From Planoprotostelium fungivorum (lineage: Eukaryota > Evosea > Variosea > Cavosteliida > Cavosteliaceae): a DNA stretch of 64,000 bases. The notes under the pieces were generated by a model that worked only from the letters and a program-made list of their open reading frames with translations, was not told the DNA's origin and searched no databases. Made by a program: the position numbers and the translations under genes. This document shows, piece after piece, positions 8,323 to 55,114 of the stretch; position 1 is the first letter of the stretch, and each line of letters begins with the position of its first letter. The DNA lies in the NCBI GenBank assembly GCA_003024175.1, contig MDYQ01000497.1:71659-135658 (forward strand), given 5' to 3'.

Positions 8323-9910
8323 TTATTCCTTTTGCTGTAGGTACAACCCCGCCGTTTTTCTCGCCATCTGGATCAGGGCCGCATCGGCCAGGACCAGAGC
8401 GGCCATCGTCTCCACGATGGGAATGGCCCTCGGAGTCACGCAGGGATCATGTCTACCTTTCGCTGCGAGCGTCGCCGGTTTGCCGCTGAAGTCAACCGTC
8501 TCCTGATCTCGACCGATGGTGGCCGCCGGTTTAAAAGCGACACGGAAGAATATGTGCTCTCCATTACTGATGCCACCCTGGATACCTCCCGAGAAATTCG
8601 TGTGGGTGCCCAGCTTGCCGTCTGTCCTTCTAAAGAACATGTCGTTGTGAGCGGACCCCCTCATCTTTGCCCCTTCGAAGCCAGAGCCCACCTCGAAACC
8701 TGTCGCGCTGTAGATCGGCACAAAAATTCACGACGCGAACCTTTTGTGGCGGGAATTGACAGCATGGCGTGAGCGAGCTTGGCCTCTAATTTGTCGAAGC
8801 AGGGCTCACCCAGCCCAGTGGGGACGTTTCGGATGACACAAGTGATGACGCCACCGATGGAGTCTTCGTCTGCCTTTGCGCTCTCGATGACCTACGATGT
8901 ATGTCACGATCACCGGCATCATAAGACTATGGTGGATGTCTTTGATGATGAGATGATGGTGTCACCTTCTGCATTTCGACGACGGCTTCTTTATCGGGGC
9001 AGCGGACGAGAGACTTATCGACTTCATCTCGAGTGATCGTGTTGATGTCCACTCCTTTGGTTGATACCTTTGGTCGTGATGAACACGATGATAAAGAAGA
9101 GACGGTGACGAAAAATTCTCTTCTGTAGCGACAGATAGATTTCATTCTATCATCCCATTTGATTTTCATCTCACCTCTCCTATAGCGCTGACAAAAGCTA
9201 CGATCTCCGTATTATATTGTTCTTTCAACCACTTCTCAGCGATAGCACCTGCAGCAACACGTCCTGTTCACAGATGAGATGACGAGCCATTCTTCAGTCG
9301 TGAGGTATCGATAAGGGTATAGAATCATCATTGAAGATCGCACCGATGGTCTCTCTGGCAGATGCTCTACCTCCACCGCTTCTGGCCGCCACGAGATATT
9401 TCTCTTGGTACGTGTAATCTGCATGAGAAGGCCTGGGGACTGCATTCATCTCTTTATGATCATTGTCAGATACAGAGTGGCGATTGCGTCATAACGCCCA
9501 CCTTTGTAATCGCCCGGTCTCTGATCTTGATTCGGGACGAAACATGAGATGGGAGTTCCGAGGGTGACTCCATTTTCCGTTCCAGATTGAATGGTGACGC
9601 GATCGGCCTCGGATCTCTGTGAATTGTGAATTACTGTGGTGAGGTGGACAACGATACTCACTGCAGTCGTCAAGTGACTCTGTCCTGGTCTCCTGCGGTC
9701 GAGCTGGACCTGATCGATGTCACCGATTGCATCATACGTCATCATACAGCATCTCGATCAAAAGAGGTCAATGTTTGAAGTATGGCTCACCTGAATATCA
9801 GCCTCGCTCAGTTTCAAACAGGGAGGGCAGCCATCAACGATAACACCAACACCTTTTCCATGGGATTCACCAAATGTAGAGATGCGAAAGAGAGTGCCAA
9901 ATGAACTCAT
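8323..9910 (-). CDS. aroC: Chorismate synthase
   Basis: The enzyme makes chorismate from 5-enolpyruvylshikimate-3-phosphate, the last step of the shikimate route to aromatic amino acids, and needs reduced FMN. Start at 9910: [20 protein letters not shown] is the family's first signature, with the catalytic His in GESHG. The next exon has [14 protein letters not shown], then a stretch with [13 protein letters not shown] and RPGDYKGG. The 3' exon has [19 protein letters not shown], then [18 protein letters not shown] and a Gly/Ala-rich finish with the second catalytic region ([18 protein letters not shown]). All expected motifs are present across about six exons. In fungi and oomycetes this step is often next to or fused with other shikimate steps, but no other pathway gene lies nearby. 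A heterotrophic amoeba keeping the pathway implies it does not depend wholly on prey for aromatics. Confidence 0.93.
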
Positions 9911-11680: not shown

Positions 11681-14600
11681 ATGGTGCATCCGCTGCTCAC
11701 CATCCTATTATCCACCATATTCTTCACGTCCACTACGTCATGCATCGTTACATTGAATGGAACTTCTTTTGATATGATGCCTCTCCGCCGGTGATCCATC
11801 ACCATCACATCAGCTTCCACCTGACGCTCCGCAGATTCAGCCGTGGAATAGAATTCGCAGAGGTAGAGGAACTGGACTACGGTCTTGTATTCTTTGTACC
11901 GTGTGAGGCGTGGGGAGATTATGGAGGGACTGTCTCTATCCCTGAACAAAGCATCTCAGTTCCTGTGTCGAACATGTCATGTGAGTGTTGATTCTCCTCT
12001 CTGTCTAAAAACAAACCAGGGCCGTTCACCTCATCTACCGACCAGTCCATCACTTTCGTCTTCTCTGGCACTTACGAGATCTTTGAGATCAACATCATCA
12101 AGGATGACCTCAATAACGGCACCGCATTCTGCAATGATACTCTCTCCAGTTTTCCCCTGCACATTTTCTGCTACCTTCAGGTCGATTCTGCGACTTATCG
12201 TTCCATCTTTGTGTCCGATCCATCGCTGGTCGATGTGCCTAGAAACAAATGGATGAGAGGTGCTGACATGTGACGCGATCGTGATCTGACCGTCGAACAG
12301 TTTTCGAATACGCGGATACCTTGTCCGTGAAAGAGTTGACTCTCATCTTTCCATCGGATGCAGTCTTCGATTGCGATGGTGAGATCAATCGAATCATCTC
12401 CTTCACGAAGACAAGAAACAAGATCGTTCTGAAAGGAGACAAATCCACGGTGATCAGAAACTGTGAACTCTCCGTCGAACGTCAGGATCAGGTGATGCAT
12501 CTCATCCTTCTGTCACGTATATGAATCTTTCACGAAACTCCGACACATGGACATCTCATCATGCGATCTCTATGCTCATCCGAAAAACAGATCGTGCTGC
12601 AAGACGTCCATTTCGATCGTAATTCTACGATACGACTGAATTTGATCGACGGCGCAGCCTTCACCATCATTAACAGCTCGTTCGTCAACACGACAGTCCA
12701 AATCTCCAGCCACTCTGTGTGGACACCAACGTATCGATATAACGTCATAGAGGACAGCGTCTTTCAGCAATCGGCAATCAGCGTCAACTTTACAGAAATC
12801 ACTCGCAAGACGAATCTCACCGTACGATCCAGCTCGTTCAATAACACGGTGCTCGAAGTGCTCGAGGCCATGTTCTTAAACGTATCTCGCTGCGAGTGAG
12901 TCACAGACTTTGTCTCCTCCTCTAAATCGCGTAGATTTTACAATCGATCTTTACCCCACCTGAGGACGATGTCGAAATCTTATTCGTCCCTCACTCTGTC
13001 TCGTAACATCATGGACGTGGAACAAGAGAAGAGACCAATGACAAAAGTGAATCCGGACGTTCCCATCGAATGGATGACACAAGAATTCAACGAATCATCG
13101 ACGGATGTGGCGAGAGTGGATATCGAGGAGAATAAGATCATGGTGAAGAGACTTGAAGATGAAGACGTGACGATCATCAGATCAGGCATTCCAGAATCTT
13201 ACCTCTCTTCTACATCCGAAATTTTTATTCCGTGTGCAGCCACAATAACGAGTGAGCGATTTTTCATTCATATCTGATGTTGTGTCGTCCTCATATTCAT
13301 CAGGTTTGTCTCTACGCTGGATTCGAAATTAAACATTTACGAGATCGTAGCTTGCGAGAATACTACCATCAGTGGAGACAGGTACTCTCTCTCCTCTCCT
13401 CTCTCTATGTTCAATCTTCTCTCCTCTCATGATGTTCAATCGATTGACAGATATCTCGGCATCAATGCACCGGATCCATCGCAGACGGTTTCAGTTTCCG
13501 GTGGGGGTTTCCTTCACGTCGTGAACACAATCTTCGATAGCAACAAATACGCCATCATGGCTTATTCCGTACAACTCATAGTGGAGAACTCTTTATTCCT
13601 TCGCAATTATCGATGCATCGCCCTAGCCACGAACGATCTCTTCCGAATCGAGAGGTGAAGTCCGTGTGTTGGAATCAACTGAAGAGTGACATCAGATCTA
13701 CGTTCAGCGATAATTCGATGATCATACAACAACCACCCAGCGAAGGTTTAGATCAGGGAACGATCAACATCGTCCAAATCGATCATTCTCTCTTCATCAG
13801 GTCTACCATGGCGTCCATGCAATTCTACGCGGCAAGAACGATGGTGGTGAACAACAGCCAGTGAGATCGTTTGAAATCGATGGATGGTCATAACGAGCAG
13901 ATTCATCGGTAATTATGACGATCGTGGTGGCGCGATGTCGATCTCTGCCCTTATATCGGTCGACATCTTGAATTGTGTGTTTCAGAGTAATTCTGCATTC
14001 ATCGGAGGAGGGGGAGCTCTCTATTTCTATGGTGAATTTAGCCGCTTGTCTCTAGTGAGTGATCTCACCATCATTTCATTTCTCATGATTCTCGTTCCAA
14101 TCTGTTCGTCGTCTTTGACGATCCACCGAACTGACGCTGTGTAGAAAAATGTGACGATCGATGACAATCACACGTTAAGAGAGGGTGGTGGTATCTTCTT
14201 CGATGCATCTGTCTTCAAGTTCGAGATGGAGAACGTGACGTTCGGTTACAATTCTGCCGGGTTCTTAGGTGGTGCCATGCTGATTGCAGGATACATCTCG
14301 TCTCACTTGTCGTTCGACGAATTGATCATCCATCACAACCGAGCACAGAATACCGGAGGAGGCATCGCTTTCGCCGGATTCCTCAACGACAGTCGGATCA
14401 GAAATTCTTCTCTCTTGTACAACGAAGCGAGGGTAGATGGTGCCGCCATCGCTTACATCCCGTCGTGCACGTTTGCCGTGAGCCATAAATTTTGACTCGT
14501 GAATGAATGAAGACAGGTGACGACCATAGAAAGCTGTCTCTTTGATTCGAACGTGGCCGAAAACGGGGCCGCGATCAACATCAGGACTTTTCCTCCACCG

Positions 14601-17288
14601 CTGCAGGTTGTAAGGTTCTTTGCAGCTCAAGAGATTCGCATGATGGATGTCACCATGAAGAACAATAACGCCAGTCGATTTGGAGGTGGTGTCTTTGCTT
14701 ATCAAAAGACACCCGTGAGATTGGTCATCAAGGTGAGGCAGAATCGTGCATCGATGATATCATCATAACACATCGATGAGAGACCGTCGTAACACAGATC
14801 ATCATAACACATCGATGAACTTTACACAGGATGGTCAATTCAATCGCAATCACGCAATCTACGGGAGTGGTCTCTACTTGTTTCAGTGGATGGACACACA
14901 ATTCACGTGAGTCTCTCTCTGTGTTCGATCTCACGTTTCACCGCAGAAATTGCCTCTTTGAAGAGAACGAATCGATTCAAGAGGGTACTGTCGTGTTGTC
15001 TGGAACCACAGATTACGAAGGCATGTATCACAGCCGATTCAATTTGGATCGTACTATGTTCCGTGATAACAAGGCGATGCACGGGGCCGCCCTCTTGTTC
15101 TCATACTTGCATCAATATGACATCAACATCCGCGGGAGTGAGTTCATCGGTGGTAAAGCCAACGTGGCCGGTGCCATACTTGCGAGTGAGCTGATCTTCT
15201 TGAAAAGAACATATGACTCATCAGATTCAGACTTCATCAATTCGAGTCGATTGACTGTGACGGATTCCAACTTCTACGACAACGAGGGTTCAGAAGGTGA
15301 GAGCGAGAGATATCTGGTGGTGTGACCCTGCAAACAGGAGCGAGCACTTTGTGGATGAATACAAGCTCGGATACGGATTTGGTCATGCGAGATAGTGAGA
15401 TCGTGAAGAAGAAAGAAGGCACGGGGGGTGTTGGTATCACCATGCAGGGCAACTTTTTAATGACGAGAGTCAACATGACGAGAGAGACTATGGATGTGCT
15501 CGATGGTCTCATCGTGATGAACGCATCCGTTATCGGTGGCATTTTATTGGCAGAGACGGCCAGATTAAAAGGTGAAGGACAGAAGTAGAGGAGATCGAAT
15601 GAAAGGAGACAGGAGCGAGCGACACCATCACTTGTAAGAACGAAGCGTTTCGACCGGTGCAGAACACAGAACAAGGCGTATGGTGAGGCAGCGAAACCGA
15701 TGCAAATCGTTCGTTCACTGATCAACAGGGAATGCTTACTGAGAGAGATGCCTTGGCTGGGTGAGTCGATGGTTCTCGATTCAAACTCACGCATCGATAG
15801 TCACTAAGATGTCCCGTGGAGCTACGGTCGCCGTCATTGTCATCGCCATCATGTTCTTGATGATTATCTCGGCCGTGTTCGTCGTTGCCTACATCTTCAG
15901 TCGCGGCAGAAAAGTGAATGTGGCAGCCATGATTGAAGAGATCAATTTGGGCGCCGCACAGAGGTGATTATCATCGGACGATTCGGTCGAGCTGATTTAC
16001 ATCAGATCACTCATCGATTTCTGCGAGTTTGATAACATGGAAGAGGTGAGAGAGATGATGAGTTGTGCATGTGTCAAAGCAGACGGTGACGATGAGGTAG
16101 ATCGGTAGGGGTGGCTTCGGTGTCGTGAGTCGAGCGGAGTGGCGTCAGACTTGTGTTGCGGTGAGATATTGATGGTGACGTGGAAGAGGTGATGAGAGAG
16201 AACAGGTGAAACAGATCAAGGCGGAACAAGTGTCAGAACAACAAGTGAAGGGGTTCTTACAAGAAGTGGTCATACTGCAGAGACTGAGATCACATCCAGT
16301 GAGTGATATAGAAGGAGAGAGAGTGACAGAGAGACAGAACGTGGTGATGTACATAGGCTTCTGCTTTCCACCTCAGCCTCTGGCTCTCGTCACGTGAGTA
16401 AAATACATTTCTATTCGATATTGAACTGTTGACAGGGAGTACTGCGAGGGAGGAAGTCTTTACGGTGAGGAGAGGTTAATGAAACATAAAGTGACATCGA
16501 TAGATTATCTGAAGAACAAGGGAGAAGAAATGACCGCGCAGCAAGAGAGGAACTTTATAGAAGGCATCGGTGAGAAGATGAAAACGCTCGTTTCTTCTTA
16601 CATCCTGACTCGAATGAAGCTCTCGGTCTGATTCACCTTCACTCTGAAAGGGTCATCCACAGAGATATGGCAGCAAGAAACGTGAGTCGAGAAGAGAGAC
16701 GAAGAGATTAAAAATAGACAGATACTGCTCAGCCGACATCTAGAACCCAAATTATCTGATTTCGGTGAGGTGTTAGGTGATAACGATGAATGACAGAGAC
16801 AGGTATGTCGAGGGAGCAATTGAGCACAGATTCCACCAATTGTACATATTCAGACGTGGGTCCTCTCAAATGGATGGCGCCCGAAGGTGAGCTGAGCTGG
16901 TGGAATAGACAAACTGAGATACATCCAGCGATCAACGAAAGAGAGTACAGCACAAAGAGTGACGGTGAGTGAAAGAGGAGGGAGAGAATGTAACGTGAAA
17001 CAGTTTGGAGCTATGGAGTTGTGATCTGGGAGATCATCACGAGGGGGGAGACACCTTATGCAACTCTAACGGCAGTCGAAGCTGCGATCGGTGTGACCAA
17101 TCGAGGATTGAGATTGAGAATTCCACCCGGTACAGACGCTCACCTCTACAAGTTGATGATGAGTGAGTGGATGATGACTGAGAGGAACTGATGCGAGGAC
17201 AGTGTGCTGGCAGGCGGAAGCGAACGATCGACCCAGCATGAGAGAGATATGTGATTGCCTGGATCTGTCTAATACATCTCTACCGTAG
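11681..17288 (+). CDS. Receptor tyrosine kinase with POMP-like beta-helix ectodomain
   Basis: The start at 11681 gives a signal peptide (MVHPLLTILLSTIFFTST). The long ectodomain (to about 15.75 kb) is rich in N-glycosylation sites. It carries repeats of the FxxN and GGA/GGG type known from chlamydial polymorphic outer-membrane proteins and other right-handed beta-helices: FQSNSAFIGGGGALYF, FGYNSAGFLGGAML, FDSNVAENGAAINI, FRDNKAMHGAALLF. One transmembrane span follows (VAVIVIAIMFLMIISAVFVV, about 15.83-15.89 kb), then a kinase domain. Visible kinase motifs are GRGGFGVVSRAEW, VKQIKAEQ, EYCEGGSLY, VIHRDMAARN, SDFG and GPLKWMAPE, then WSYGVVIWEIITRGETPY. The HRDxAARN loop and the PLKWMAPE segment are those of tyrosine kinases, and none of the catalytic residues is missing. 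The C-terminus ends LDLSNTSLP. Start and some ectodomain joins are less sure than the kinase part. The ligand is unknown; a carbohydrate or surface polymer is plausible. Confidence 0.82.
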
Positions 17289-23530: not shown

Positions 23531-23606
23531 CAAAGTTTCAAACCATTACAACCCGCTAGGGAATAAAATGGCTTCGAGATGACGCCGCAAACAACATCGA
23601 ATCGAC

Positions 23607-24397
23607 ATGACAACATTGAAACACGAAAGACTGATTGTCGCTGGTAAAGACATCACGGACGCCGGGACACGATGGTTGGAGGAGAGGATCGTGAAAGCCA
23701 TACAAGAGAGAGGAGTGGCCATCATAGGACTGTCAGGAGGATCCACACCGGGTCCCATCTATGAGAAATTGGGTCAGTCCAATGCCATCGACTTTACCAA
23801 GTGTTACGCATTCATGGTTGATGAGAGACACATTGCAGAAGATCACAAAGACTCGAACACTCTGCTCTTACGCAACACCCTCCTCAAGGGTGGTAAGTTC
23901 TTGGAAGAGAACCTGGTTCGACCCAATACATCTCTCCCTATCGATCAGACAATTCGAGATTACGATACGAAGATGAGAGAGCTGTTCAAGAAAGGAAACC
24001 CTGACATTGTATGTTTGGGTGTGTATCGTTAATCGTGTGAGAAATCTGAACGACCTCACAGGATTGGGTCCAGATGGTCACCTCGCCTCCATCTTTCCAC
24101 CAGCCAACATCGATGCCGCCAACAGAGAAGATGCATATGTCCTCCACACAACTACTGAAAAGTTTGCCGTTTTCGATCGAATCACCGTCAACTTCATCGT
24201 CATTCGAAAGGGTAGAGAGCAGGTGAATCTCAAGTAGTTGCTTGATACTCACCATGATCTAGGTGTTCTTCATGAAGGGAGCGGACAAGGTGAAGGTGTG
24301 GGACGAGATGATCGGACAACCCAATCATCATGAAAGATGGCCAGCTCAGAAGGTGATCGAGGACGGTCACACGACTCTCATCGCCTCCACTGATTGA
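23607..24397 (+). CDS. 6-phosphogluconolactonase
   Basis: It hydrolyses 6-phosphogluconolactone in the oxidative pentose-phosphate pathway, in the cytosol. The start is MTTLKHERLIVAGKD at 23607. Family motifs follow in order: GLSGGSTPGPIYEKL, then FMVDERHIAEDHKDSN, then GLGPDGHLASIFPP (the catalytic G-x-G-x-DGH region) after an intron at about 24018-24060. A further intron at about 24222-24264 leads to VFFMKGADKVKVW and an end at ASTD (stop 24395). The total of about 235 residues is normal for the family. The single-domain form, rather than a fusion to G6PDH as in some protists, is clear because both flanking genes are unrelated. Confidence 0.92.
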
Positions 24398-28814: not shown

Positions 28815-30616
28815 ATGATCAACGGAGCCCTCTCTAGTCACGATGTAACGAGAAACATCTTAGAGATGGTGATAAAAGAACAAGGAGATGATATAAGAAG
28901 GAGGACAGCGCTTGCCAGGCTTCGTAGTACTTGTAAGATGTGGAAAGAGATGGGTGAGTTGACCGTTCTCAGTTTCTTCTGACCAAGGGTTGCAGTAGGG
29001 GACAGAGCGATCATACAAGAATCTCTGGAAAGTTCTCCGAAAATTATGCAACTGCTGTTGGCCGACCTCCGCGTGAATCCATCAAGGGATGACAACGAAG
29101 CAATTCAACACGCATCCTACCTCCGATGTATTGATACCAAGATCGTACAGCTGCTCTTGGCAGATCCTCGTGTAGATCGGCAAATGACAACTCGGCCATC
29201 CGAAAAGCATCCCATTTTGGCCATACCAAAATCGTACGGATGATGCTTCTGGCTCACCCTCTGGTGGATCCATCGTCCCTGAACAATGAGGCCATCAGAG
29301 AAGCATGTGCACGCGGTCACATCGGGGTGGTACAGTTACTCTTAGACGACGATCGTGTGGATCCTTCAGCAGCAGACAATCATGCGATGAAGAAGGCAGT
29401 CTGTGGTGAATTTTAGATCTTGCAGATGCTACTGGCCCACTCAAAAATCGATCCATCAGTGGAGGACAACACAGTCCTCCTTAGAGCATGCAGGAGTGGT
29501 GATGTCAGCACCACCGGCCTCCTCTTGGCTGACCCTCGTGTGGACCCATCGACGGATGCCAACGAGGCCATCAGAGTTTCATCAGCGAGAGGATGCATCG
29601 AGGTAGTGCGCCTGCTCTTGTCTCATCCTCGCGTGGATCCCTCCGTCATGGACAATTGGGCCATTCGAAAGGCATCTACTCGTGGCCACATCGGAGTCGT
29701 ACGATCGCTCTTGTCCCATCCACTCGTGGATCCATCGGCAAACAACAATGAGGCCATCAATGAGAATGGACGCACGAAGACGTTACGTCTGCTCTTGGCC
29801 GATCGTCATGTGGACCCTTCTACTACAAACAACTCTGCCATTCAAGAGTCAGCCATGCGCGGTCACATAGGTATCGTGCGGTCACTCTTGTCTCACCCAC
29901 TCGTGGATCCATCGGTAGATAACAACTGCATCTTGATGACGGCAGCCTGCAATGATTACGTTCAGATTCTTCAGATGCTACTGAGCCATCCAAGTGTTGA
30001 TCCATCAGCACAGGACAACCAGCCGTTGATCAGTGCATGCAATCGCGGACACCTCCAGATCCTCCAACTCCTCTTGTCTGATCCCCGAGTGGATCCATCA
30101 GCCAGGGACAATGAGGCCATCATCAAAGCGGCCAGATGCAGCTGTCCAACGATGGTATCTATACTGTTGGCTGACGCCAGAGTCGATCCATCGGCAAGAG
30201 AAAACAAAGCTTTCAGGCAGGCCATGAAGGTACTGCTCGCAGACGAGAGGGTCAAACCATCAGTGGAACACATGAGTAGAGGTCTAGGGAAGAGAGAGAT
30301 CGAGCTGCTGCAGCTTCTGATAGACAAGTACCACGTGGATCCATCTGCACACGACAACCAAGCCATCATCGATGCGTGTGAGGAAGGAAGCGTGGAGGTA
30401 GTACAACTTCTCTTGAGCGATCCTCGAGTGGACCCATCAGCACAAGGCAATCAGGCACTCAAAATAGCACGTAAACGAAGATATCGAGCGGGGCAGGAAA
30501 TCATGCAACTACTCTTGAGCCATCCTCGTGTGAATCCTTCTTCACCAGACAGCATGAATACCAGAGAGCCTCCCCAACTAAATCCAAAAAGAACCAAGAG
30601 GATGCGGACACATTGA
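28815..30616 (+). pseudogene. F-box-like/ankyrin-like repeat gene, reading frame broken twice
   Basis: The opening MINGALSSHDVTRNILEMVI leads, via a motif near LARLRSTCKMWKEM (F-box-like), and after one intron at about 28954-28996, into about 15 repeats of some 33 residues. The repeat consensus is LLxDPRVDPSAxDNxAI, then xxAxxxGHxxVVxL, an ankyrin-like unit. Two lesions are seen. About 4 bases are missing near 29190, where VDPSA becomes VDR and the frame shifts. An in-frame TAG lies at 29416-29418, inside a repeat. From 29420 the frame is open for almost 400 codons to 30616. Either this is a recent pseudogene, or the assembly has errors, or the 3' part is used alone from an internal ATG. Such arrays are common as large families in amoebae; partners are unknown. 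Confidence 0.6.
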
Positions 30617-39093: not shown

Positions 39094-42000
39094 ATGAAGA
39101 GGTACTTGCTGCATCTCAGTTGGATTTGGGGTGATACACGTCACACTCTCAGACAGCTCCTAATTTATACAGTGGCTTTGTCTTCTGTGGGTGATCCCGT
39201 ATCAACAAAAGAACCCTCCCTACCAAAGGTATCTGTATATTCTGTACACCCTGACCCATATTTCTCTGATGTCACTGCCTCTTTCCCTACCAACTCGTGG
39301 TGGACGAGAACATTAGCCCCATCTTCACCCATTGCAGGTCCATTTCCATTCCAGGTGAACATCACCACGACTCATTCGTTCTGATAACAATCGACAGTCT
39401 ATTCTAGGTGATCGTGGAGTGTCTATCGGTGCATCTACACCCGTATCATCCTCGCAAGGACTCCAATGGAAGCCTAACTTCGAGTTGAACATCACACTGG
39501 GAACCGATGTGCCAATCAGTCAACCTAAAGCAGAGTATTGGGACTCTTTAACACTTCGCATGCGCTGGGGGACGAACAATCGATACATGAGAGCCGTGAT
39601 GGTGCAAGGAAGTCCATTCTTCACGATAGAATACAGAGGCACTACACCAAACGTGAGGACACTGATTCACGACCCGCGATTGATGTCGATCAGATCGATT
39701 ACAGCGCAGATTGGATGAAAAGCTCATCAAACAACCGCACGACTCTGACCAACCGAGTGACGGGAGACGCATGGCAGATCTGGAACCTCCCCAAGGTGAT
39801 CATCGATCACCATCATCCACTCACGTCGAGCAGACATCCAACGTGGACGGCGTCTACCGTTTCGCTCGCGTTTCGATCAAAGAACAGATCCAATATCTAA
39901 ATTCCCGCGTCAACACTTACCCCACCGCCGTCCGGATCAATTACTCCATCTACAACGAGACAGCCAGCGTCACTTACAATTTCACCACCGTGGGAAACCC
40001 AAGAGACCTGGTCGTGCTGTCATGGCCTCATCATCGAGATGTCATGCGGAGCGACATCGTTGTAGATGGGACGATCACCATGGCAACGATGAGAGGGGAT
40101 ATGAAGAGTGTCAGTGGAAACATCTGGACGCTGATCTATCCATTACCCCCCGTCAACATGACACAAAGGGTTGAGAGCTCCTGCGAGGGCCCACTGGGAC
40201 AGATGCTCCATTCGGAGGCGGTCACTTGCCCGTCCCAAACGAATCTGACGGATTTGAGATCGTGGGGAATGGGTGTACATCGATTGGCTCGATTGGTCGA
40301 GATGACATCGTCGATGGGCATGAAGAACGAATCGGATGTTATCTTGATGAAGGTGAACACATCGACGATGTGATGTCACCTGACTTCTTCAAGTTGAAAG
40401 ATTCATACGCTCCGTGGTACGACCGGAATATCTCTGGAGGTATTTATCCGGCCTACGATGTTACGTGGAGAGGTGTCGTCATGGCAACCGATCCCCTCAG
40501 CTTCTTTTCTTCTGGACCATCCATCTACAACGATCATCCCTCCCTCTACGGTTATTTTCTCTACGGATTTTCTGTAATGATGAAAATGGATCCCACCTGG
40601 GCCGCCCCCCGCAAGTACCTCGCAGACGAGATGGTCAGAGATTACGCCAATCCATCTACAACCGACCACTTCTACCCCGTCGTACGTAGCTACGATTTCT
40701 TCCACGGGAACACTTGGGACAACTCGTTCGGTGCCGGCGGCGTCAACGTAGAGAGGAACTTTGGTGAATCACTCCACGGATATCACGCCATCAGCGTGTA
40801 CGGTGACAGCTCGGGCAATCGAGATCTCACCAATTGGGGCCGTCTCTTGGTCTCCATGGCTACAAATTCATTACGGTGAATCCTCTCTCTTCCAACCGTT
40901 CTGACGCGTTGTAGATACCGATTACTTTACAATTCGACGCAAGATCCACACTCGGAGCCTTTCCCTTCGTCTTCTCTCTACAATCGCAGCGGCCTCTTTC
41001 CTTTCGTATCGAGAATCGACAGCGGCATCTACAACGACATCAACATCGCATCGTCCGGCCTCGATCTCTCCACCCTGGTTCGACCGCTGACGGCTCTATC
41101 TCGATGGATGATTCCAATCGATTGGGCGTCTCAGTGGTGGAGTCATCGTGGTGATTACACATCGACGATGGGAGGGGAGATGAAGAATGTGATGAGCATC
41201 TTATCGATGGTGGAACCGGTGAGGGTGATGAGAGATGCTTGGGGGAGGAGTGACATCGTCGATGCCGATTGGTTCTACTTTGTCACGTCTTCTCCTTCGG
41301 CTAGTCAGGGCATGTGCAATTTCATCTATGACACCACATCGTCCACATCAATCAAATCGATCACATCGACAACGATGGACACATCGACATCCGACGCATC
41401 AACATCATCTATGTCATCCACCACATCCAACACCTCCGACACGACATCATCTTCTCTGTCCCCTCCCACATCACCATCTTCTCTGTCCCCTCCCACATCA
41501 TCATCTTCTCTGTCCCCTCCCACATCATCATCTTCTCTGTCCCCTCCCACATCATCATGGAAGATCCCATCCCCCACCCATCAACCACCCTCCAAGGTGA
41601 TTCACATCGACGATTCCATTCCCCTCATCCGAACAGATCACGCTGAGAATCGACGCACGAGATCAAATCGAAGGATCACAAGTGCAGATCATCTTATCGG
41701 AGGTCATCGGCTGCTCAGCCGCATCGATCAGCGTCTCCCTCTCTCCCCTCCACACACGCAACGTCCTCTATGTAGCACAAGTCATCCTCTCAGAGGACAA
41801 CCTCACTCCCTCTCAGGCCATGCAGAATCTCACTCGAGCGATCGATCTACAACGAGCCGGAGACGACGTCTTCTCTGTGTCTGCGGCCCGCCACGGCTTT
41901 CCCTCCTTCGCGGTGGACATCATGAGAGACGATGAGACGACGTCTGGGACGATGGAGAGCACGAGCGTGAAGAAGAGTGGGACAGACTCTCTCATGAGCG

Positions 42001-42173
42001 AAGCAGACGGGAGAACACCCAAGTTGGTCGGTGCAGCTCTCGGAGTCATCTTCATCGGAGGCATCGTGGTGGTGATCATCGTCTACGTCATCATCCTCCG
42101 AAAGAGGACGAGAAAGTGGAAGGGAATCGACGTCCACAGGACAGATCCAAAGTATTCAAAGCTCTTCTCATGA
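39094..42173 (+). CDS. GH81 endo-1,3-beta-glucanase, membrane anchored
   Basis: It should cut beta-1,3-glucan, the main fungal wall glucan. The N-terminal beta domain has SFPTNSWWTRTL and PFPFQ, as in other GH81 enzymes. The helical catalytic domain has YNDHPSLYGYFLYGFSVMMK, DHFYPVVRSYDFFHGNTW and NFGESLHGYHAISVYGDSSG, then NWGRLLVSMATN. A Ser/Thr/Pro-rich stalk with a 9-residue repeat (SLSPPTSSS) follows. An intron at about 41597-41635 leads to a small beta-rich domain (ITLRIDARDQIEGSQVQ) and one C-terminal transmembrane span (LGVIFIGGIVVVIIVYVIIL) with a basic cytosolic tail. So this is a type I surface glucanase. Of the two active-site Glu usually seen four residues apart, the second (in FGES) is present; the first position reads Arg by my alignment, with a Glu one residue earlier. 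The start is uncertain (39094, or further upstream). Confidence 0.83.
41445..41557 (+). repeat. 27-bp coding minisatellite in the GH81 stalk
   Basis: Four near-identical 27-bp units (core TCTCTGTCCCCTCCCACATC) encode the SLSPPTSSS-type stalk. The near identity of the units suggests recent expansion and likely length variation between strains. Confidence 0.85.
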
Positions 42174-42485
42174 GGAGCTCCTCTTGTGAGGAGATATCTC
42201 TTCGTCACCCCTTAGACGCCCGAAATGAGTGATTGTCAATACACCCTCGAAAACCTCCTTTTCTCATCTTGCGGGCCACCGCTTAGGGAGCCGCTTGACG
42301 AGAACGAGCGAATGTCTTTGTGTCTGGATCAGAGTGATGATATGGATGCTGTTTGTGTTGTGAGGATGAGAGATAGAGAGGGTTGGGCGAGGTGGTGTCG
42401 GTTATATGCGTAAACCGATTCGAGTCGGTTTTCGATGTCATAGCTGTCAACCACCAGAGCGCCATTTCCGAAAAGCTTCACAAAC
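42174..42485. promoter_or_regulatory. Intergenic, with near-palindrome upstream of the GH18-like receptor kinase
   Basis: The 312 bp between the GH81 stop and the next start contain AACCGATTCGAGTCGGTT at 42413-42430, an inverted repeat with one mismatched pair, about 56 bp before the ATG. A 62-codon frame at 42225-42413 has no recognisable content. The palindrome might be a regulator site; this is inference. Confidence 0.3.
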
Positions 42486-45400
42486 ATGGGCTGGCTCCCT
42501 TTGTCTTTGGGGTGTATCTTCGTCCTGTGTCTAGTCCTTCCATACAATGAAGGTCAAATTCTCATGGGGGATTTGGATGAGACCAAAGTGGGTTATAATC
42601 CAGGCTGCGATTTGATCGATGTCACAAAGGTATGGGAGAATGGATGTATCACTGCATTCATTGACTCGTTTTTCTAGATCAATTTCACACGATTTACGGA
42701 TCTGAGAGTTCGATATCTGGTCTATAACCAAACTGGTAAATCGATGACATCGGCTTCATATGGTGAGAGCGTTGACAATTATTCCATCATTGTTGATTAC
42801 TAAACATCCCAAGGGGGCGACACTTCTTCTGGTACCTACTTCCAATTGAAAAGAGAAATCTCCAAGCAGAAGGCGAAGACCCGATTGATCGTGAGTCTTC
42901 AAAGGTTTGTCACCAACTTACATTTCTAGGCGACACTTTTGTGGTCGGGTGATTCGACGGACACCGCAGCAAAGTTGAAGGACGCCACGTTCAGACGTCG
43001 GTTCATCCAAACAGCCATCCAGTATGTGCTCAAACAAAAATTCCAAGGACTATCTGTTTATTGGCCCGTCTCACCTTGGACGACAGACGATCAGGTCACC
43101 CTTCTACATCCACCAGACATCTGACATCACCCACCAGATCACCATACAGTATCTCATGCGAGATTTCCGAGCCGCTCTCAACGGTACCGACCTCCTATTA
43201 GACATCCAACTGCCCGGTCTGTCCGACAATTTGGGACCCAACGCACCGATAGCCAACATCACCGAATACGGTGCGTCCTCCCCTCTCATCCTCCTTCTCA
43301 CTCTCCACAGCCGATCGCGTGACGATCCAAACTTTGGACTACAACGGTGATTGGGCCGATTCCATCAGCCAAGGAACAGGCGTGGACAGCCCCGTAGATC
43401 AAGTGACCTCTTCCTTACGATCCTACGCAGCTCTCGAGGTCAACACGAGCAAGGTGACCCCTCTTCCATCTCAATGGACCACCTGACGTCCCCAGATTGT
43501 CTTTCACATTCCCTCCTTTGGCCTCGCCTGGGTTCTAAACAACACGAGCATCACAGGAAAGGGTGCCCTTGTCAATGGTGTGAACCACACGCTCGGCGGC
43601 TGCGTCGATTACGTGGGATCGGGGAAGCCTTCTGGAGGGGAGGTGAGTGATAGTGAAGAAGCATCGAATGAAAAGTCAAGGTGGACCAATTCATCGCATC
43701 GGGCTACTCGACGAATTATGACAGTACGAATTACATCTTTTACGCTTACAAGGGTGAGTCGTCTGCTGATGTCGCGTCTCATGATCGCAGGAGCTCAGTG
43801 GATTGGCTACGAGAACGCTCAATCGATTTACCACAAGGTGAGATAGAAGATGAGATGAGACGATATTTCCTCTCTCAATGGTCAGCCGCTGACGAGGGCA
43901 GACGCAATTGGTTCAGTCGATGGATCTGGGAGGTGTCTGTCTGCAAGAATTATCCAATTCACAGACTCTCCCCGCTCTCATCTACAACTCCCTCTATCTC
44001 GGTCCACCCACCACCAGCAGCGGATCCCTCCCCTCCACCTCTCCCTCTCCCTCCCCTCAGGATGACGAGTGAGTCACGTGACCCCACGAGTCTCACCCTT
44101 ATCAGGAAGTTATTGAAGATCGTCGTCCCCATCATTGTCGTCACTTGTATCGTTGTCATCGCTGCGGCCATCATTTTCCTCGTATTGAGGTGGAAGAGAA
44201 AGAGGGCGTACAAGTTGATTCCCAGAGAAGCTCCAGCAGAATCTGATCTGGAGTCGATCTACAGTCGAATTCCAAACAACGAATCGCCGGCGTCGCCGAA
44301 CATGGTACAGATCCATTATTTGAAGAAGTACGCTGCGGATGAACAGTGGGATACCATTCCTATTGAAGAGCTTCAGTTCTCCGAGGTCATCGGAAAAGGT
44401 GATGTACTCTATATCGTCTATTCTGTAAAGGTCTTTCATGACAAAATATTTTCCATGACAAAACGACTTGAATGACATCCATTGATAAAGAGATGCTCAC
44501 TCCTGAACAGGAGCGGGAGGAACTGTCTATAAAGGAAAGTGGAGAGGATCACAAGTGGCCATCAAGAACGTCAGAGTGGAGAGCGAATTAGAGACGGCCA
44601 ACACTCTCGGAGAGATACACATCATGAAGAGATTGAGGCCACACGTCAACGTCGTTCAGGTGGGTCAAACGTCAACTCCTCGGCTGACCCATCCAGTTCT
44701 TGGGTGTCTCTCTCAGCCCACAAGATGCTACTCTTTGCATCGTGACTCAACTGTGCGAGGGTGGATCGCTCTATACTCTATTGCATTCATCGAGAGATAT
44801 CCCCGTTCAAGTGTTGGAGAATGTCATCAAGGGAGTGTGTGCCGGTCTGTATCACCTGGTGAGTCCATCTCATCACGATGTGATCGTTGATGATGATCAG
44901 CACACGGAGGGTATCACCCACAGAGATCTGGCCGCGAGAAACATTCTATTGGATAAATCGATGGAAGGAAAAGTCTCCGGTGAGAGAGGCATCGCAGGAA
45001 AAGATTGACCGTGTCAGATTTCGGTTTGAGTAGAGTGAACACCGAAGGGGGTGAGGCACAGACACAGACGAACGTGGGACCTCTGAAGGTGAATCGAATC
45101 ACTCACATCGAGATGTTAAACTCTGCAGCATATGGCGCCAGAGTGCCTACTTCACTCTGTGTATTCTGAGAAGACAGACGGTGATTATATCATATCATAT
45201 GCTCCATACACAGTTATCCACACTCTCACCTATTTACTTGTCTTATTTCTTCTGACGATGCACAGTGTGGGCATTTGGTGTCACTCTATTCGAAATCTAT
45301 TCGAGGTGATGACTTTAGAGGAGAAAGGAGACTGAAATGAAGACAGGACGGAGCCTTACGCAAACTATTCTCCCGTGGAGACAGCAACGAGAGTGGTGGA

Positions 45401-45560
45401 CAAGATGAATCCACTGAGGCTGAGACCCACGCCGAACATGTCACCCGAGATGAAGAGGATCTTCCTCTCTTGTTTTGACGTCGAGCCCGTCTCTCGCCCC
45501 ACGTTCGGTCAGCTGAGCGCAGAGCTTGAACAGTGCACCGAGTTCTTCAGTATCAAGTGA
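42486..45560 (+). CDS. Receptor tyrosine kinase with catalytically dead GH18 (chitinase-like) ectodomain
   Basis: The start at 42486 gives a signal peptide (MGWLPLSLGCIFVLCLVLP). The ectodomain follows GH18 order: ATLLWSGDSTDTAAKLKD, then FRRRFIQTAIQYVLKQKFQG and LSVYWPVSPW at the place of the catalytic DxxDxDxE. Next come RVTIQTLDYNGDWADS, AQWIGYENAQSIYHKV and WFSRWIWEVS, the usual later barrel strands. All catalytic acids are replaced, so hydrolysis is not expected, while the fold appears kept. A transmembrane span (PIIVVTCIVVIAAAIIFLVL, about 44.12-44.19 kb) leads to a kinase with VAIKNVRVESE, ITHRDLAARNILLD, VSDFGLSRV, GPLK, MAPECL, then a closing helix with SRPTFGQLSAELEQC. The HRDLAARN loop marks a tyrosine kinase with intact catalytic residues. 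It lies 312 bp downstream of the GH81 glucanase on the same strand. Glycan sensing is inferred. Confidence 0.78.
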
Positions 45561-54315: not shown

Positions 54316-55114
54316 ATGATCCACTCTTCAGTCGGAGGAGACTTAATCACCACCACCTCTACCGCAGACAACTGGCCACCTGCGAAGAAGGGCACTGGAT
54401 TCTTGGTCCTGGGAAAGATCAACGACATCAGAAACCACCATGTTCAGGTGAGAGGAAGACAAGATGGGAAATATCGACGTCGTTCAGGACTCTTCAAAGA
54501 AGTTCCATCGTTACTTGGCAGTAACGGTGTCTGTCGATGGAATCCGAAAGAGGCAATACAACAAGAACGGTGACGAGCTGGAGACCAACTTCAACGCCGA
54601 AAAGGTCGAGAAGAAGGGATTCCTGAACAAGTATGGTGAGCGAAGCATCATTGAATCTCCACGTCATGTTCACTTTCGACAGATCACAAGGACAATGATG
54701 ATCCTAGCATGGTATCATTCGATCAATTCAGACAGCTCGCTGGTAAACCATATTTCGACTACAGCTCCGTCCATCCAGCTGCCCCTGGTGTCTTCGAATT
54801 CTGGGGCCCTGTGGCGGACATGAAATCGAGAGACTTGAAGAAAGGTGATGCATTCATCTCTACAGGATGGATGATGACACGTGCTCACGTATCATGCAGG
54901 AGACAAGATCCAGATCAAGACCATCGGAGACACCACGCTGATCGAGAGTTGTGCGAACGAATCAAAGGTGGCTGGAAGCAGCTACGGAGGAGAGGATGTT
55001 TTGGGCGGATGGACATCCAAGATGAACGCAAAGCCGAACGCCAACACGACCGGTGGAGACAAACCTCTACCCGGCTCTCAATTGGAAGGCGTAGCTGATG
55101 AAGAATGGGACTGA
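54316..55114 (+). CDS. Unrecognised soluble protein, four exons
   Basis: I do not recognise the family. The start MIHSSVGGDLITTTSTADNW at 54316 joins after a short intron to VQDSSKKFHRYLAVTVSVDG, then RKRQYNKNGDELETNFNAEK. After a second intron come FDQFRQLAGKPYFDYSSVHP and FEFWGPVADMKSRDLKKGD. After a third, DKIQIKTIGDTTLIESCANE runs to EEWD at the stop. The composition is hydrophilic and beta-rich, with no signal peptide or membrane span. At about 220 residues it looks like a small cytosolic domain protein. It ends about 45 bp from the convergent tail-anchored gene. Confidence 0.65.

Follow-up and report, generated by a model that had tools for sequence, protein, structure and literature searches.

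The window analysed here, 64,000 nucleotides of Planoprotostelium fungivorum DNA (contig MDYQ01000497.1; positions below are counted from its first letter), carries at 42486-45560 a gene model best explained as a whole as a single-pass receptor kinase with a pseudo-chitinase head that would bind a ligand. We give this reading, which is predicted from the sequence, a probability of about 0.45. The encoded protein would begin with a hydrophobic leader, followed by a GH18-related head of some 345 residues, a Ser/Thr/Pro-rich linker, a membrane span and a kinase (Table 1).

The chitinase-related head

Profile and PDB (Protein Data Bank) searches placed the head in GH18, in agreement with the ectodomain assignment of an earlier note made on this DNA from the letters alone. 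Pfam Glyco_hydro_18 (PF00704) matched residues 76-354 with an E-value of 1.5e-28, and the score of 100.9 bits lies above the curated cut-off of 29.6 and extends across most of the domain (profile positions 48-313 of 317). The closest PDB match was class V chitinase A of Cycas (4mnl, E 3.9e-20, residues 34-354), followed by tobacco class V chitinase (3.8e-16) and then by chitinases and chitinase-like proteins of insects and mammals. At E-values up to 10 the search returned 73 distinct sequences, the best 60 of which are all chitinases or chitinase-like proteins by name; a few of the names, such as SPP-40 and BP40, we take to be chitinase-like, and the source organisms of the matches are in part likewise our assumption. 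The organism name Cycas is also found in PMC4967823 (publications are cited by such numbers throughout). Residues before 76 are covered by PDB matches only, and the multiple alignment is poor there. In this alignment, made with the Cycas chitinase, a fragment of the tobacco chitinase (248 of 353 residues, blank at some pocket columns), human chitotriosidase (CHIT1) and YKL-40, the head was identical to the Cycas enzyme at 81 of 304 aligned positions and to CHIT1 at 66 of 334. From the profile and PDB sequence matches we infer a TIM-barrel fold for the head. The 64-kb window contains no second GH18-like stretch (next tblastn match, E 1.9), and a pattern scan with the ectodomain gave 11 viral-contig and 54 prokaryotic-genome matches, none of them relatives by tblastn, a result that says nothing on eukaryotes.

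The claim that the catalytic site reads FQGLSVYWP and is devoid of its acids was borne out by the alignment. In three active enzymes this stretch corresponds to F[DH]GLDLD[WY]EYP and in YKL-40 to the already altered FDGLDLAWLYP; the equivalent of DxxDxDxE is QxxSxYxP, which is not the motif of an active chitinase. Since FQGLSVYWP lies within a single exon and is aligned with those chitinase motifs, it is not a splice artefact. As aligned, the loss goes beyond the four catalytic acids noted earlier: the GGW loop has Leu for both Gly, Met and Tyr of the MxYD motif are replaced by Gln and Leu, and the beta8 Trp by Gln, with the equivalent of Asp213 kept.

Out of ten pocket residues of CHIT1 (Asp136, Asp138, Glu140, Met210, Tyr212, Asp213, Trp218, Trp358 and both Gly of the GGW loop; counted by hand), Asp213 and Trp218 are the two kept in the head, against eight in YKL-40 (Fisher P 0.023). 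The same tendency was observed with 15 columns, consisting of 14 of chitotriosidase and Trp218: 2 of 15 are kept in the head, versus 33 of the 73 other columns common to the active enzymes (P 0.023). The addition of Trp218 weakens this result; with the 14 columns alone the head keeps one (P 0.007) and YKL-40 keeps 12, and when the poorly aligned N-terminal columns were removed from that list the head retained 1 of 12 versus 31 of 62 (P 0.010). YKL-40 has no such pocket bias (12 of 14 pocket columns, 59 of 74 others, P 1.0). The P values are only a guide, because the columns are few and come from one alignment. Asp136 was included as a residue of the DxxDxDxE motif, all the others except Trp218 are described as CHIT1 pocket residues (PMC12502790), and Trp218 lines the +1/+2 subsites together with Trp99 (PMC12042104). 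The head has a Trp at the position of Trp99, which is not constant among the active enzymes and stands outside all lists, as the Cycas chain used has Gly (two Gly and one Trp among the Cycas chains in the PDB matches). According to the alignment, the deep -1 pocket has thus been largely lost, and the outer +1/+2 side, with the equivalents of Trp99, Trp218 and Asp213, is retained.

Chitin had been suggested as the ligand. Of this suggestion the GH18 ancestry stands, and classical chitin binding by the head is weakened, because the equivalents of the GG loop, Met210, Tyr212 and Trp358 are replaced where YKL-40 keeps them. A sensor of chitin or chito-oligomers, whose dead cleft would still hold oligomers of N-acetylglucosamine (GlcNAc) in the manner of YKL-40-type chi-lectins, is therefore unlikely, even with the ancestry of the head and the surviving Trp99, Trp218 and Asp213 equivalents in its favor. 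Human chitinase-like proteins that lack catalysis still bind chitin by way of a site that is intact (PMC12042104), and the site of the head is not. Furthermore, the substitutions W364A and W361A, in a Trp that probably corresponds to that of beta8, abolished class V chitinase activity (PMC4967823), which is a measure of catalysis and not of binding.

A switched ligand, with the head binding mannan, a high-mannose N-glycan or a protein as the Robinia chitinase-related agglutinin (RobpsCRA) does, is a possibility, if a tentative one. It would agree with the extensive loss of the GlcNAc pocket. Among the PDB matches of the head is a chitinase-related agglutinin (4uri, E 7.8e-9), which we take to be RobpsCRA. 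This class V chitinase relative recognises high-mannose N-glycans (PMC6272470); its catalytic machinery is, however, reported to be conserved, unlike that of the receptor head, in which no residue points to mannose binding.

Gene structure and the kinase

The gene model starts with an ATG at 42486 and its stop codon ends at 45560, exactly the limits given in the earlier note. Removal of the introns yields a single open frame of 746 codons, and all 17 introns have GT..AG ends and lengths of 37-112 nt, 12 of them falling within 37-43 nt. Ectodomain and kinase, which the note had placed in one gene, are most likely joined as modelled, because an intron of 37 nt with GTGAGT..CAG ends (intron 10) links the ectodomain exon to that of the membrane span, and because, of the three stretches examined, only the one after the kinase contains AATAAA (42174-42486 and 43838-44520 do not). 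Intron 10 is taken as spliced on account of its good ends and typical size, which equals that of introns 8 and 12; its removal preserves the frame. The single span proposed earlier was confirmed by hydropathy. The outer part (370 aa) carries eight N-glycosylation sequons, two of them overlapping, versus 3.3 expected by shuffling (P 0.008), and the cytoplasmic part three versus 1.7 (P 0.23), which speaks for an extracellular head. Decay of a pseudogene, in which residues were lost by drift, would account for the missing catalytic residues of the head; it is barely credible for a gene with 18 open exons, regular intron ends, a complete set of kinase residues and non-pocket columns better kept than pocket columns.

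In the cytoplasmic part, Pfam PK_Tyr_Ser-Thr (PF07714) matched residues 483-736 (E 1.7e-59). The catalytic residues are complete, as the earlier note had stated: the Gly loop (489-500), VAIK (507), HRDLAARN (602), DFG (622) and APE (648-650). Motifs diagnostic of tyrosine kinases (TK) have been published as DL(R/A)A(A/R)N in subdomain VI, XP(I/V)(K/R)W(T/M)APE in VIII and GXR(L/M) in X (PMC3937382). The first is present as DLAARN; for the second, GPLKHMAPE shares Pro, Lys, Met and APE, with Leu in place of I/V and His in place of Trp; for the third, PLRL (residues 698-701) has the Arg-Leu and no Gly. In our alignment the position of PKA Thr201 is occupied by Pro, and the lack of Ser/Thr there is a published sign of tyrosine acceptance (PMC1420674). 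When the C-lobe alone (155 residues) was compared with the PDB, the best 60 of 1391 matches were all tyrosine kinases, of nine kinds and mostly BTK and RET entries. The kinase is thus probably an intermediate between TK and tyrosine kinase-like (TKL) enzymes that is active on tyrosine; the backing for the tyrosine type claimed earlier is confined to these motifs and C-lobe matches.

Several points weigh against the receptor reading. Scored per domain, the whole kinase is nearest to B-Raf (142.8 bits) and CTR1 (140.1) among the 60 PDB matches listed, mostly B-Raf, and both a reconstructed Src-Abl ancestor (130.8 bits) and EGFR (108) lie below B-Raf; a tandem EGFR chain heads the list only through the summing of two domains. 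TKL kinases are described as biochemically Ser/Thr kinases (PMC1420674), and His occupies the Trp position of the tyrosine-kinase P+1 loop. Gene neighbourhood in a eukaryote, which enters the argument below, is weak evidence of shared function. Finally, if intron 10 is retained, an ATG near 44062 opens a frame through the span towards the kinase, so that a headless kinase could be made from unspliced RNA. The more radical form of this objection, that a secreted GH18-like protein and a headless membrane kinase were wrongly merged at intron 10, would also find the ectodomain closed by a stop past the linker. We regard it as very improbable in view of the ends, length and frame-preserving join of this intron and the lack of AATAAA in 43838-44520, and the alternative kinase would overlap the end of the ectodomain.

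As a separate observation (44062-44105, plus strand), retention of intron 10 would end the ectodomain frame just past the linker, which might give a soluble decoy. Another receptor-type kinase was found at about 15815-17170 on the plus strand, with a span-like stretch, GGFGVV, HRDMAARN and VGPLKWMAPE; its P+1 loop has Trp where the GH18 receptor has His. An open frame upstream of it (14145-14492) matched the Chlamydia PMP repeat (PF02415, 2.6e-5). The presence of a second similar kinase suggests a family of such receptors in the genome.

Neighbouring genes and proposed function

A GH81 endo-beta-1,3-glucanase gene lies on the same strand and ends 312 bp upstream of the receptor gene. Both its N- and C-terminal domains were matched (PF03639, 3.3e-11; PF17652, 1.1e-28; PDB 4k35, 3.7e-19). 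This model is provisional at its 5' end and start codon, homology support extends to about 40875, and the C-terminal span was assigned by inspection. By hand count, Asp475, Glu553 and Glu557 of 4k35, which we take to be the catalytic acids, are matched in the alignment by the Asp of YNDHP and both Glu of VERNFGES, and the glucanase is for this reason probably active. Beta-1,3-glucan is a main polymer of the fungal wall, and the GH81 gene adds a fungal-wall context that the earlier note had not mentioned.

In the proposed receptor, the head may bind an extracellular glycan or glycoprotein, either with what survives of the outer cleft (two Trp and one Asp on the +1/+2 side) or with a new surface. 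Binding would then lead to clustering of receptors, and the clustered kinases would phosphorylate each other and partner proteins, probably on tyrosine. In a phagotrophic host the likeliest use would be to recognise food, and the adjoining gene for a glucanase with a predicted membrane span makes fungal-wall material the best-placed candidate. Recognition of food or fungus is also suggested by the ancestry of the head and by a precedent from Dictyostelium, where loss of the single-pass TKL receptor VSK3 impairs the maturation of phagosomes (PMC3135261). For the fungus-feeding amoeba Protostelium aurantium, mannoprotein-rich Candida albicans was described as partly protected from initial recognition (PMC11237637), which shows that recognising the fungal surface matters for such organisms. 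A bolder proposal is that the two neighbours form a pair that cuts and senses: at the cell surface the membrane-anchored beta-1,3-glucanase would open fungal walls, and the protist's independently evolved pseudo-chitinase receptor of tyrosine type would read the wall material so exposed through its half-cleft, with the enzyme pocket lost and the outer aromatic side kept. As a whole, this pairing seems quite unlikely.

If the receptor reading is true, the same design, an enzyme for a fungal-wall polymer deprived of catalysis and placed ahead of a kinase, would have arisen separately in plants (CHRK1 type) and, probably, in this organism, whose kinase is of another class. This would be a clean case of convergent evolution from pseudoenzyme to receptor. 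It would also turn food recognition at the surface of a fungus-eating or phagotrophic protist into a testable question, as the erased -1 pocket and the surviving outer cleft amount to a specific prediction that can be addressed with a single expressed domain.

For the remainder of the window, 50 open frames outside the receptor, out of 516 with at least 60 codons, were compared with Pfam, so that genes in other frames may escape. An ABC ATPase exon lies downstream of the receptor gene. Further features are exons of an alpha-L-fucosidase (GH29, PF01120; 1432-2858, minus strand), chorismate synthase of the shikimate pathway (8326-8727, minus strand; PF01264, 7e-40), a member of the glucosamine-6-phosphate isomerase/6-phosphogluconolactonase family (23583-24029, plus strand; PF01182, 3.3e-24), an array of ankyrin repeats in which a DPS motif recurs, within one open frame of 399 codons (29417-30613, plus strand) and an Arpin-like exon (54452-54820, plus strand; PF10574, 1.8e-6). 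The G+C content of the window is 45-53% in 2-kb steps, which, like the short introns and the Arpin-like exon, fits an amoebozoan host without deciding the matter. The window contains no tRNA by ARAGORN and no Rfam match at gathering thresholds.

Table 1. Features of the receptor gene and of the adjoining glucanase gene.
Feature	Position	Strand	Basis
GH81 endo-beta-1,3-glucanase, Ser/Thr/Pro linker, C-terminal hydrophobic span at 42027-42107	39202..42173	+	PF03639, PF17652
Whole receptor gene, 18 exons, 746 aa	42486..45560	+	gene model
Probable signal peptide, residues 1-23 (cleavage site inferred)	42486..42554	+	hydropathy
GH18 (TIM-barrel type) ectodomain, residues 34-355, exons 1-10	42585..43952	+	PF00704, PDB 4mnl
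Beta3 SxGG site, reads LIATLLWSGD; GG lost, next Trp present; spans intron 3	42885..42953	+	alignment
Beta4 DxxDxDxE site, reads FQGLSVYWP, residues 140-148; all four acids lost	43041..43067	+	alignment
Beta6 MxYD site, QTLD within VTIQTLDYNGDW; without Met and Tyr, with the equivalents of Asp213 and Trp218	43319..43354	+	
Beta8 site, reads LGGVCLQELS; Trp358 (CHIT1 numbering) replaced by Gln	43926..43955	+	alignment
Ser/Thr/Pro-rich linker, residues 372-394, split by intron 10	44001..44106	+	
Intron 10, 37 nt, GTGAGT..CAG, between ectodomain exon and membrane-span exon	44069..44105	+	
Single membrane span, residues 399-423, in one exon with the kinase start	44119..44193	+	hydropathy up to 3.45
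TK/TKL-type kinase domain, residues 478-740	44356..45539	+	PF07714
Catalytic loop HRDLAARN, residues 602-609	44919..44942	+	
P+1 loop GPLKHMAPE, spans intron 15	45077..45143	+	
AATAAA, 24 nt past the stop codon	45584..45589	+	

Comparison with known receptors and chitinase-like proteins

The nearest known design is that of the tobacco receptor kinase CHRK1, whose ectodomain is related to class V chitinases and described as inactive for want of a Glu (PMC10573068); another review presents it as predicted to be enzymatic (PMC5485988). The latter source counts 91 sequences of GH18 receptor kinases in plants, and a single soybean gene of this type is mentioned in PMC6272470. By published description, the protein modelled here is alike in its inactive class V chitinase-related ectodomain, membrane location and cytoplasmic kinase, and the gene model unites GH18 ectodomain, one span and kinase in one protein, so that the likeness to CHRK1 drawn in the earlier note holds for the layout. 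The closest solved relatives of the head are likewise plant class V chitinases, the class to which the CHRK1 ectodomain is related. The extent of loss differs, as CHRK1 is described as lacking one Glu, whereas the receptor head lacks four acids and most of the pocket. The kinases of plant lectin receptor-like kinases (lectin-RLKs) carry DIKPAN and GT(F/I/L)GYIAPE (PMC12355970). The kinase described here, set against lectin-RLKs and not against the CHRK1 sequence, has DLAARN and GPLKHMAPE and is without these plant motifs, and for this reason the fusion was probably made separately from, and independently of, the plant GH18 receptor kinases.

YKL-40 (CHI3L1) and other chitinase-like proteins resemble the head in belonging to the GH18 fold family without catalysis and in having a signalling role. 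The PDB chain of YKL-40, however, has no kinase, and the intact chitin-binding site typical of this chi-lectin, with its eight of ten pocket residues, is not found in the head, with its two. RobpsCRA offers another parallel as a class V chitinase relative serving as a lectin; it differs in its catalytic machinery, reported to be conserved, and the excerpt of PMC6272470 makes no mention of a kinase.

Among amoebozoans, the Dictyostelium receptors VSK1-3, DRK and GDT share with the predicted protein a signal peptide, a single span and a TKL kinase; the ectodomains of Dictyostelium TKL receptors named in the excerpt consulted are GDT-specific, Dictyostelium-specific or TIG, with no GH18 among them. 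Seven tyrosine kinases with predicted membrane spans are described from Acanthamoeba (PMC4053784), and a search of that paper's main text for the word chitin gave no occurrence. In the open-licence literature, judged by titles and the openings of abstracts, we found no description of a GH18-kinase fusion outside plants, which is not proof of absence. The layout of a GH18 receptor kinase is thus already known from plants, and it is the probable tyrosine-type kinase and the broad loss of the pocket that differ here.

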